Positions 11,289 to 20,153 of a stretch of 64,000 bases of DNA are shown piece after piece. Under the pieces are notes generated by a model. That model did no database searches. It had not been told where the DNA came from and saw only the letters and a list, made by a program, of their open reading frames with translations. The DNA is from an uncultured Ruminiclostridium sp. GTDB lineage: Bacteria > Bacillota > Clostridia > Oscillospirales > Ruminococcaceae. Location of the stretch: contig CALXBK010000007.1 in the NCBI GenBank assembly GCA_944386545.1, positions 1-64,000 of the forward strand. Direction: 5' to 3'. Within the stretch, counting starts at the first letter, position 1. Each line of letters opens with the position of its first letter. The translations under genes were made by a program, and so were the position numbers.

Positions 11289-11378
11289 TGGCGCAGAAAG
11301 AGGGATTTGAACCCTCGCGCCGGTTTCCCGACCTACTCCCTTAGCAGGGGAGCCCCTTCACCACTTGGGTATTTCTGC
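11289..11378 (-). tRNA. tRNA-Ser (anticodon GCT)
   Basis: This 90-nt cloverleaf with a long variable arm has the acceptor stem GCAGAAA/TTTCTGC, discriminator G and an encoded CCA. The anticodon loop carries GCT (minus strand CTGCTAA). The long variable arm and G73 are serine identity features. It is co-transcribed behind tRNA-Leu. Confidence 0.96.
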
Positions 11379-11399: not shown

Positions 11400-11486
11400 T
11401 GGTGCCGCTGATCGGACTTGAACCGATACGGTATTGCTACCGAGGGATTTTAAGTCCCTTGTGTCTGCCTATTCCACCACAGCGGC
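11400..11486 (-). tRNA. tRNA-Leu (anticodon TAA)
   Basis: This 87-nt tRNA has the acceptor stem GCCGCTG/CAGCGGC, discriminator A, an encoded CCA and a long variable arm. The anticodon loop is CTTAAAA, giving TAA. It lies 21 bases upstream of tRNA-Ser in the same transcript. Confidence 0.96.
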
Positions 11487-17924: not shown

Positions 17925-18437
17925 ATGATTAAAACAGCTTTGACATTAACAAGGGAAAATATCGAAAAATATGTAAAGTATCTGCTTTTGGGCAAAACAA
18001 AGCTCTCTAAAGCAATGGTTATAATTTATGTTACGGTTATGCTTGCACTTTCTGCGGCGGCAGTAGTCTTTTCTGTGATAACGGGTATGTTCTGGTTTAT
18101 CGCGGTTGCAGTATGCTGCCTTCTGCTTATAGCTGCGGCTTTCGCATTTGTTATGTATACGGCAAAAAAATATACCGATGAGCTTTATAATTCAAATACC
18201 GACAGAGGCTTTGACGGTATTGAAATAACCGCAAGCTGTATCGTACTTACAAAAGGAGAGAAAAATGTAGGTATAATCGAGTGGAGCAATGTTTCCTCGG
18301 TTGATATTGTAAAGCAGACCGCCTTTATTACGGCAGAAGGCTATCTGCTGTGCTTTGAGCAAAACAGTATAACAGAAGGCACGCTTGATGAGTTTATGCA
18401 GATTGTAAACGAAAAGCTGGTGAAACAGGGTGATTAA
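17925..18437 (+). CDS. YcxB-like two-TM membrane protein
   Basis: A 170-residue protein with two transmembrane segments (about residues 28-50 and 55-77) and a soluble C-terminal part. That part (GFDGIEITASCIVLTKGEKN ... IIEWSNVSSVDI) resembles the YcxB-like C-terminal domain found in many small Firmicutes membrane proteins. The function is unknown. Its ATG lies one base after the tex stop, and its end overlaps queH by eight bases. Confidence 0.7.
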   Translation: MIKTALTLTRENIEKYVKYLLLGKTKLSKAMVIIYVTVMLALSAAAVVFSVITGMFWFIAVAVCCLLLIAAAFAFVMYTAKKYTDELYNSNTDRGFDGIEITASCIVLTKGEKNVGIIEWSNVSSVDIVKQTAFITAEGYLLCFEQNSITEGTLDEFMQIVNEKLVKQGD

Positions 18438-19062
18438 CTACCAGCTAAAGACGGACGAAATCATAAAAAATCTCAAAAACACCCCGTCCCTGCTTCTTCA
18501 TGTGTGCTGTGCTCCTTGCAGCAGCTATGTGCTTGAATATCTGACGGAATACTTTGCTGTAACCGCATTTTTCTATAACCCGAATATCACGGAAAAAGAG
18601 GAATACGAAAAACGCAAGACAGAGCTTAAACGCTTTGTTTCTCAAAGAGAGTTCAGAAATCCCGTAAATATCATTGACGGCGATTATGAGCCGGAGCTGT
18701 TCTTTGAAATCGCAAAGGGCATGGAAAAGCTGTGCGAGGGCACAGAGCGCTGTTTTCGCTGTTATGAGCTGCGACTTAGAAAAACCGCCGGGCTTGCAAA
18801 GAAAATGGGCGTTGATTTCTTTTGCACAACGCTATCGGTAAGTCCTCACAAAAATGCACAGAAGCTAAACGAAATCGGCGAAAGACTGAGCAATGAATAC
18901 TCCGTGCCGTACCTTTTTTCTGATTTTAAGAAGAAAAACGGCTACAAGCGTTCCATTGAGCTTTCGGAGGAATACGGACTATACCGTCAGAATTACTGCG
19001 GCTGTATTTTCAGCAGGCAGAAAAATATTTTTAAAAATAGTCAAAAACAGTTGTCAAAATAA
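18430..19062 (+). CDS. queH: Epoxyqueuosine reductase QueH
   Basis: The 210-residue DUF208 protein performs the last step of queuosine synthesis in tRNA, reducing epoxyqueuosine without cobalamin. It shows the cysteine signature LLLHVCCAPCSSYVLEYL at the N-terminus, ERCFRCYELRL in the middle and NYCGCIFSRQK near the end; together these bind an Fe-S cluster and a metal. A GTG start at 18430 overlaps the preceding gene. A promoter for the corA leader lies inside its last codons. Confidence 0.93.
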   Translation: MINYQLKTDEIIKNLKNTPSLLLHVCCAPCSSYVLEYLTEYFAVTAFFYNPNITEKEEYEKRKTELKRFVSQREFRNPVNIIDGDYEPELFFEIAKGMEKLCEGTERCFRCYELRLRKTAGLAKKMGVDFFCTTLSVSPHKNAQKLNEIGERLSNEYSVPYLFSDFKKKNGYKRSIELSEEYGLYRQNYCGCIFSRQKNIFKNSQKQLSK

Positions 19063-19079
19063 GAAAAGTGTGCTAAAAT
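19051..19079 (+). promoter_or_regulatory. Promoter of the corA leader transcript
   Basis: TTGTCA (19051-19056), 17 bases, TAAAAT (19074-19079), overlapping the end of queH. Transcription would start at about 19086, leaving a leader of some 130 bases before corA. Confidence 0.7.
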
Positions 19080-19113
19080 AGAATGAAATATGTATTTTTT
19101 TAAGAAATGAGGT

Positions 19114-19200
19114 GAACGGCGATGACTGCGGACCCATGCGGGAGATACTTGACAATAACCGAAATAAAAGCTGAAATCGCCGTTCTAAGGCGTTTTTAGC
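19114..19200 (+). promoter_or_regulatory. Candidate attenuator in the corA leader
   Basis: Two structures cannot coexist. GAACGGCGAT (19114-19123) pairs perfectly with ATCGCCGTTC (19176-19185), an antiterminator-like pairing that covers the upstream ORF start codon. The alternative is a hairpin of 19170-19181 with 19189-19200 (11 of 12 pairs, including CGCC/GGCG), whose 3' arm contains TTTTT. The second arm is shared, so forming one excludes the other. This is the classic layout of translation-coupled attenuation. It does not match M-box, yybP-ykoY or fluoride riboswitch consensus that I know. Confidence 0.6.
19122..19199 (+). CDS. 25-codon upstream ORF in the corA leader
   Basis: An ATG at 19122 with GAGGTG seven bases upstream opens a frame ending TAG at 19197-19199. 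The peptide starts MTADPCGRYLTITEIK and ends VLRRF. The start codon lies in one arm of the antiterminator-like pairing and the stop codon lies in the terminator-like hairpin. Ribosome position would therefore decide which structure forms. The early Asp-Pro recalls leader peptides such as MgtL, whose translation falters at low magnesium, but the similarity is only in general form. Confidence 0.55.
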   Translation: MTADPCGRYLTITEIKAEIAVLRRF

Positions 19201-19217
19201 AGAAAACGAGGTACCTT

Positions 19218-20153
19218 ATGTTAAAATTTTACAAGACGGTAGGCAACGCCATAACAGAGCTTGACAGGCTCGAGCCCGGTTGCTGGGTATCGGCAATCGC
19301 GCCTACCGAAACAGAGATTTCCACTCTTGAGCAGGAGCTTGGAATAGACAGAGATTACATCCTTTCCGCTTTGGACGAGGAGGAAACCTCACGTATCGAA
19401 AGCGATGACGGACAGACGCTGATTGTCCTTGACTATCCCGTTGCGGAAAAGGTACATGACAAAGAGGATACCATAAGCTATTACACAACACCTATGGGTA
19501 TTATTTTTACAAACAGCAATGTTGTCACCGTATGCTTAAAGGAAAACGTCATCATTGACGAGTTTTCAAAGGGCGTTGTAAAGGGAATACAAACTCAGTT
19601 CAGAACAAGGTTTGTTTTCCATATTCTTTTAAGAATTGCGAGCAAATACCTGTTGTTCTTAAAGCAAATCGACAAGCTTTCCAATTATGTCGAGTCACAG
19701 CTCCACAAGTCCATGAAGAACAAGGAGCTTATTCAGCTTTTAGGACTTGAAAAGTCGCTGGTATATTTTTCGACCTCGCTTAAATCTACCGAAACCGTGC
19801 TTGAAAAGATATTGAGAGGCAGAGTAATAAAGCTTTACGAGGAGGATCAGGAGCTTCTTGAAGACGTTCTTATCGAGGTAAAGCAGGCAATTGAGATGAG
19901 CAATATCTATTCAAACATTCTTTCGGGTACTATGGACGCTTTTGCAAGCGTTATTTCAAACAACCTGAACATTGTCATGAAAGTGCTTACGGTTATCACG
20001 ATTGTAATGTCCGTCCCTACGATGGTGTTCAGCTTTTACGGCATGAATGTGGTGGACCTGCCGATGCCGTTCACATGGTTCCCGCTTGTGATTTCCGTTG
20101 TGCTTGCGGTAATCGTTGCAATTGTGATTACAAGAAATAAATTTTATAAATAG
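19218..20153 (+). CDS. corA: CorA-family magnesium/divalent-cation channel
   Basis: This 311-residue protein has the CorA layout: a large cytosolic N-terminal funnel (about 1-240, ending in long helices with YSNILSGTMDAFASVISNN), then two transmembrane helices (about 250-275 and 285-308). The selectivity signature YGMN is at the end of the first helix (FSFYGMNVVDLP). It assembles as a pentamer and imports Mg2+, sometimes Co2+ or Ni2+. The unusual leader with an upstream ORF suggests magnesium-linked control. ZapA follows after 14 bases. Confidence 0.95.
   Translation: MLKFYKTVGNAITELDRLEPGCWVSAIAPTETEISTLEQELGIDRDYILSALDEEETSRIESDDGQTLIVLDYPVAEKVHDKEDTISYYTTPMGIIFTNSNVVTVCLKENVIIDEFSKGVVKGIQTQFRTRFVFHILLRIASKYLLFLKQIDKLSNYVESQLHKSMKNKELIQLLGLEKSLVYFSTSLKSTETVLEKILRGRVIKLYEEDQELLEDVLIEVKQAIEMSNIYSNILSGTMDAFASVISNNLNIVMKVLTVITIVMSVPTMVFSFYGMNVVDLPMPFTWFPLVISVVLAVIVAIVITRNKFYK

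Follow-up and report, generated by a model that had tools for sequence, protein, structure and literature searches.

A probable ribosome-read translational attenuator with an Asp-Pro leader peptide upstream of corA in Clostridia

We analysed a 64,000-nucleotide stretch of DNA from an uncultured Ruminiclostridium sp. (the window) and found that the leader of its corA gene is probably a translational attenuator read by the ribosome, for which low cytoplasmic Mg2+ would be the likely signal. Four lines of computational evidence support this reading: a short upstream ORF (uORF) whose coding region is conserved, a set of mutually exclusive helices, the lack of a terminator in close relatives and the place of the element before corA.

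The features of the locus are collected in Table 1. A preliminary description had given the uORF as 25 codons with a good ribosome site and with Asp-Pro at codons 4-5, all of which can be read directly from the sequence: the peptide opens MTADPCGRYL, with Asp4-Pro5 at 19131-19136 and Gly7, a GGG codon, at 19140-19142. The transcript would start at about 19086 and, judged by eye, many uORFs of relatives have TTGTCA/TTGCAA ... TGTGxTAAAAT at equal spacing upstream. The corA Shine-Dalgarno sequence, GAGG, lies at 19208-19211, the YGMN signature of CorA is near-invariant across 12 relatives, and the gene downstream of corA encodes a ZapA domain. Directly upstream of the leader is queH, for epoxyqueuosine reductase (18430-19062); an apparent queH end also lies upstream of corA at locus L061, probably as plain synteny. 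Compared with its dinucleotide shuffles the leader gives a better fold, with a z score of -2.45 and just 4 of 200 shuffles doing as well, and no known RNA family was matched in it at the gathering threshold or at E values up to 5. The sole RNA-family matches of the window are two tRNA genes (Rfam RF00005) on the minus strand, at 11292-11378 and 11403-11486. No second copy of the leader was found in the same genome, where the other matches were chance matches of 14-33 bases.

Table 1. Features of the corA leader (positions in the window)
Feature	Positions	Strand	Remarks
Probable promoter	19051..19079	+	TTGTCA - 17 nt - TAAAAT, TG before the -10
AUGAGGU	19107..19113	+	Predicted minimum free energy fold pairs it with ACCUUAU 19213-19219, across the start of corA
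uORF ribosome site GAGGTG	19109..19114	+	7 nt to the uORF ATG; conserved in alignment A2
Arm 1, uORF spacer and start codon	19114..19123	+	Pairs with arm 2 (helix P1, proposed OFF state); covariation
uORF	19122..19199	+	25 codons, MTADPCGRYLTITEIKAEIAVLRRF stop; ATG 19122, TAG 19197-19199
Arm 2	19170..19185	+	19176-19185 with arm 1 (P1); 19170-19181 with arm 3 (P2, proposed ON state); covariation
Arm 3	19189..19200	+	Pairs with arm 2 (P2); 19191-19197 also with arm 4 (P3, proposed OFF state); holds the uORF stop
Arm 4	19202..19211	+	Pairs with arm 3 through 19202-19208; continues into GAGG, the corA Shine-Dalgarno sequence
corA, regulated gene in the proposed model	19218..20153	+	311 aa, ATG 19218; PF01544, E 2e-55

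How widely is this uORF kept in front of corA? Regions upstream of corA were taken from 62 genomes of the genus and order, from 80 named loci (among them Ruminiclostridium and Oscillospiraceae MAGs, Anaerotruncus colihominis, Marasmitruncus massiliensis and Merdimmobilis hominis), from approximately 90 class-level loci and from 29 phylum-level loci; these sets overlap in part, the same assemblies appearing under G and L names, and our statistics treat related sequences as independent. Every complete corA locus examined from the same genus has a uORF of the form M-[TSKNA]-[AGPST]-D-[P, rarely G/E]-x-G, the sole exception, L061, being a split gene, and a uORF is likewise present before corA in 40 of 45 further named loci of Oscillospirales type. 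Requiring a ribosome site, and without collapsing identical sequences, we found that [DE]P occupies codons 4-5 in 39/54 upstream regions of the genus-and-order set, 39/45 of the named set and 14/63 of the class set, against maxima of 1, 2 and 1 in dinucleotide shuffles and against 0-2 for [DE]P at other codon positions of the same regions. In the phylum set an MD(x)DP-like uORF precedes corA in 12 of 25 leaders, compared with a shuffle mean of 0.03. The opening residues vary around this theme: MNPDPGS (the form in Anaerotruncus colihominis), MSPDPYG, MGADPCSRKRK and one MSPEPRSR in the order, MDADPG, MDSDPGGS and MDCDPGGS in other families of the class, and MDGDPS, MDDP, MEADP and MD[AS]GP across the phylum. 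A strict DNA pattern for the uORF gave 7 matches across 295 genomes of the order, of which the two with a ribosome site both lie before corA and the remaining five, which have none, look like chance. Almost all relatives thus have, upstream of corA, a short ORF that opens M-x-[A/P]-D-P-x-[G/S]; the ORF described in the window is kept in relatives and, as set out below, its pairing covaries.

Our choice of sequences used the motif itself, and thus the presence of Asp4 in 87 of 87 uORFs, in a set chosen for Asp, is a circular figure; that circularity does not touch the shuffle controls or the free third base of the proline codon. Codon 5 is free at its third base (1.66 bits) but fixed at bases 1 and 2 (0.27 and 0.31), from which it follows that Pro5 is selected as an amino acid. 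One sub-clade replaces Pro5 by Gly or Glu (MSADGNGR, MSADEYGR). In three of its loci (L016, L017 and L019) the loop from arm 3 to the corA ribosome site contains approximately 60-75 nt of extra structured sequence.

The codons behind Asp-Pro are unusual. In the ORFs of the window AGT makes up 6% of Ser codons, CGA makes up 4% of those for Arg and GGG 6% of those for Gly, but at uORF codons 5-9, with identical sequences collapsed, Ser is AGT in 52/64 cases versus 18/121 after codon 10 (Fisher p ~4e-19), Arg is CGA in 46/64 versus 13/145 (p ~7e-20), both p values being descriptive as they ignore kinship, and Gly is GGG in 50/89 versus 36/115 later. We read this block as a slow stretch that would lengthen the time for which a ribosome whose nascent chain contains Asp-Pro occupies arm 1; alternatively, the preference may reflect a motif at the RNA level. 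The strings CGAAGT, AGTCGA, GGGCGA and GGAAGT recur at these codons of corA uORFs and also in uORFs before mgtE. A CCC...GGG mini-hairpin over codons 5-7 was considered as the cause of the conservation and rejected, as it is absent in the DGNG, DEYG and DPGS forms.

That the rarest Ser, Arg and Gly codons are so strongly favoured immediately behind Asp-Pro is also what might be expected of classical stalling, in which a small molecule or a shortage of an amino acid or charged tRNA (e.g., in decoding Arg-CGA or Ser-AGT), and not Mg2+-dependent instability, would hold the ribosome, and leaders of the ermC type share the arm logic of the corA leader. We nevertheless regard classical stalling as quite improbable: the residues at codons 6-9 vary widely, unlike those of amino-acid attenuators, which rules out a leader of that kind, and the regulated genes are Mg2+ importers.

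The RNA provides the second line of evidence for an attenuator. The preliminary description had placed the uORF start codon in one arm of a perfect 10-bp pairing, and the pairing is exact, 19114-19123 (GAACGGCGAT) being the reverse complement of 19176-19185 (ATCGCCGTTC); it had also placed the uORF stop in a competing hairpin, which we delimit as 19170-19181 with 19189-19200, the stop lying in the 3' arm. To these a third helix can be added, and the evidence supports three mutually exclusive helices that join the uORF start to arm 2 (P1), arm 2 to arm 3 (P2) and arm 3 to the region of the corA Shine-Dalgarno sequence (P3); they exclude each other because P1 and P2 share arm 2 while P2 and P3 share arm 3. 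In the window P3 is short and A-U rich and touches just the first base of the corA Shine-Dalgarno sequence; it covers more in relatives. The pairing of AUGAGGU listed in Table 1 is possibly specific to the window, being absent from the predicted structure of L010.

Pair counts were based on the 12 leaders nearest to the window (alignment A2), with a more distant sub-clade left out on account of gaps in the MAFFT alignment that included it (A3). In A2, P1 pairs in 97% of cells. P1 and P3 together have 6 pairs changed on both sides, with a covariation of 0.223 compared with 0.148 in shuffled and at most 0.157 in slid controls; for P2 there are 5 such pairs and a covariation of 0.358 compared with 0.265 and at most 0.233. 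When arms were assigned by a fixed rule in 84 leaders from all sets, identical sequences again collapsed, the sum of P1, P2 and P3 beat shuffles at p<=0.05 in 48%, and the single helices did so in 45% (P2), 40% (P1) and 20% (P3). Since P3 on its own is weakly better than shuffles, it is the least secure of the three.

Conserved RNA structure would also be expected if the leader RNA itself bound Mg2+ as a riboswitch, with the uORF playing a secondary part or simply following from the conservation of RNA sequence, and the mgtA and corA leaders of E. coli have been discussed in such terms (PMC11552253). For the leaders described here we consider a Mg2+-binding RNA very unlikely: the helices that covary are all of the arm type, there is no large conserved unpaired core, no Rfam Mg2+ family is matched, and Pro5 is kept as an amino acid and not as bases.

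At which step, then, would the helices act on corA? The preliminary description had proposed a terminator/antiterminator switch in which translation of the uORF decides the fate of an intrinsic terminator at 19170-19200, where a hairpin is followed by T's and competes with the 10-bp pairing. Its uORF and its alternative pairings stand, the former conserved and the latter covarying, but the terminator does not: neither a terminator scan nor a scan for hairpins followed by T's finds one there, and terminator-like hairpins are present in 0 of 54 corA leaders of genus and order relatives. The T's in question (19192-19196) pair inside the stem, and their run is not conserved, aligning in relatives (which read CUUUCUG) with a CUUUC/CUCUUUC anti-Shine-Dalgarno sequence. 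Terminator-like hairpins do occur in 6 of 45 further order-level leaders and in 9 of 39 mgtE leaders, the latter count being provisional, like all our counts for mgtE leaders, as mgtE start sites were chosen by rule; some mgtE leaders of related genomes have strong terminators, and uORFs of the same kind may be coupled to termination elsewhere. For the corA leader a terminator/antiterminator attenuator is very improbable and, as the third helix involves the region of the corA Shine-Dalgarno sequence, control is most likely exerted at the initiation of corA translation.

Control at that level could also arise by plain translational coupling, with a ribosome that finishes the uORF unwinding P3 or re-initiating at corA and with no sensing at codons 4-8. 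The short distance between the uORF stop and corA would suit coupling (18 nt in the window, 3 nt in L013, overlap in L021 and L022). Among leaders, however, the position of the stop is unconserved, ranging from overlap with corA to 123 nt upstream of it, while codons 3-8 are conserved, and coupling has no need of Asp-Pro, of rare codons or of a helix between arms 1 and 2; we therefore think it unlikely.

The translational attenuator that we propose would work as follows. With no ribosome on the uORF, arm 1 would pair with arm 2, leaving arm 3 free to pair in the region of the corA Shine-Dalgarno sequence, and corA would be off. A ribosome held on, or repeatedly aborting in, the first ~8 codons, where Asp-Pro is followed by rare GGG, AGT or CGA codons, would cover arm 1, upon which arms 2 and 3 would pair and the corA ribosome site would be freed. 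A ribosome that reads to the uORF stop would cover or pass arm 2, and corA would be off again. Low cytoplasmic Mg2+ would act by weakening ribosomes whose nascent chain has acidic/proline residues early on, as is the case for MgtL and MgtQ, and CorA would thereby be made when Mg2+ is short. We infer that the uORF is translated, that ribosomes abort or pause at Asp-Pro and the rare codons, that Mg2+ is the signal and that the response has this sign. The sign had been left open in the preliminary description; the arms predict ON for a ribosome on the first codons and OFF for none or for a completed uORF. A ribosome standing at the uORF stop extends to arm 2 or beyond it in 37 of 42 well-structured leaders, which fits completed translation being the OFF state. 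When the first codons were masked in silico, equilibrium folding exposed the corA Shine-Dalgarno sequence in just 20 of 47 leaders and hid it in 5, which we take as mixed support; equilibrium folding alone does not show a switch, and a co-transcriptional order must be assumed. Folding during transcription would favour the switch, with arms 2 and 3 meeting before arm 4 exists.

The closest published systems are enterobacterial, and the corA leader would work like mgtQ with an MgtL-like peptide. Salmonella mgtQ keeps the mgtB ribosome site hidden through stems 1:2 and 3:4 and exposes it through 2:3, with a requirement for the acidic codons at positions 2 and 5 (PMC8092293). The corA leader resembles mgtQ in its short, early-acidic uORF before a Mg2+ transporter gene, in the alternation of 1:2/3:4 with 2:3 arms, and in the proposed translation-level control by a transporter ribosome site hidden in 3:4, although the corresponding part of the corA leader (P3) is its weakest helix; a further likeness is that the base sequence of the proline codon forms part of stem 1. 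The differences are that mgtQ has 8 codons with Asp2 and Glu5 in the intergenic region of an enterobacterial operon, whereas the corA uORFs have 13-44 codons, Asp4-Pro5 and a rare-codon block, and lie in the corA 5' leader in Clostridia and beyond. Given such short peptides, and a gene and phylum that both differ, the likeness is more simply read as convergence; the peptides are unlikely to tell of descent from mgtQ or MgtL.

The likeness to MgtL noted in the preliminary description is borne out. MgtL, encoded before mgtA in E. coli and Salmonella (PMC11282234, PMC11552253), makes ribosomes stall or fall off at its EPDP when Mg2+ runs low (PMC11282234); it shares with the corA leader a Mg2+ importer gene downstream and, by our reading, ribosome destabilisation. 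Acidic and proline residues fall within the first codons in both, Asp4 and Pro5 being conserved before corA, and E. coli MgtL (MEPDPTPLPRRR) has Asp-Pro at the same codons 4-5, followed by Arg codons (CGA CGG AGA). However, MgtL acts via Rho-dependent termination, whereas the corA leader would act via an anti-Shine-Dalgarno helix; nothing in its sequence demands Rho. MgtL has two acidic residues and four Pro, while a single acidic residue and a single Pro precede codon 9 in the window peptide, which would make a weaker destabilising motif than EPDP; the MDxDP forms of other families are closer to MgtL, and MDADP and MEADP, also of other families, have two acidic residues. The gammaproteobacterial corA motif with corL (PMC11552253; PMC6429828) shares a uORF in the corA 5' leader and alternative RNA structures; the motif is a Rho-dependent three-way junction leader with a corL uORF, and corL has been described as having a single Pro. 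Stav et al. reported the corA motif in Gammaproteobacteria only (PMC6429828); that for mgtE described by Narunsky et al. does not extend beyond Thioalkalivibrio (PMC11109978). Within a literature coverage that leaves out most subscription journals and preprints, we found nothing on corA or mgtE uORFs in Firmicutes and no occurrence in this context of peptide strings such as MTADPCG.

The case for Mg2+ as the signal is circumstantial, resting on the GMN signature of CorA and on the absence of the M-box. In other Clostridia that riboswitch (RF00380) governs these transporter genes, and in several families it lies before corA; it is an aptamer sensor, whereas in the corA leader the sensor would be the ribosome. 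We found no M-box in the leader or genome of the window, nor in any of the 60 genus and order genomes sampled, the positive controls being found. Across the class M-boxes are present in 75 of 292 genomes, many directly before corA by coordinates (e.g., in G137, G163, G187, G251 and G307), and at four loci the order is M-box, acidic-proline uORF, corA (G178:C1:386245-386408, G261:C1:37015-37180, G331:C62:329930-330098 and G215:C1:2602460-2602630), an arrangement that putatively sets two Mg2+ sensors in tandem. The earlier suggestion of a new magnesium or translation sensor before clostridial corA gains computational support, with Mg2+ as the probable signal.

The other importer gene, mgtE, is absent from the window's genome. 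Most sampled corA carriers of the genus have no mgtE, G009 and G011 having both, and mgtE is present in most of the genus genomes without a close corA (G003, G010, G017, G019, G020 and G022). In the order, mgtE leaders often have a uORF of the form M-[DE]-x-G-S using the rare AGT (provisionally 20 of 39, versus 2.2 in mononucleotide shuffles), and other uORFs of mgtE leaders read LAEDPLPPRSR, LEDPIPPRSS, FDDPLPPRSRR and CEPDPLPSPDPKK. Short ORFs with early acidic residues (e.g., ATG GAC GCN GGN AGT...) are seen before mgtE at L233, L234, L238, L240, L241 and L244 and at the further loci L246, L251, L257, L261, L266 and L272; at L238, L240 and L244 a strong terminator-like hairpin follows.

To our knowledge, leader peptides that destabilise the ribosome are known as Mg2+ sensors from enterobacteria only. 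We tentatively suggest, as a reading we find plausible but would not yet favour, that acidic-proline leader peptides together with a rare-codon pause form a phylum-wide, ribosome-based Mg2+ sensor in Firmicutes, which would act on corA through concealment of the ribosome site and, in some genomes, on mgtE through termination, and which would replace the M-box where it is lacking and act in tandem with it elsewhere, MgtL and MgtQ being one case of a wider and repeatedly evolved principle. If this is true, nascent-chain-dependent ribosome stability would be a general bacterial gauge of Mg2+, with Asp-Pro and a three-arm logic serving across Clostridia that lack the usual riboswitch, and the hundreds of natural variants of the leader, including their codon-level signature, would be available for testing early ribosome release.
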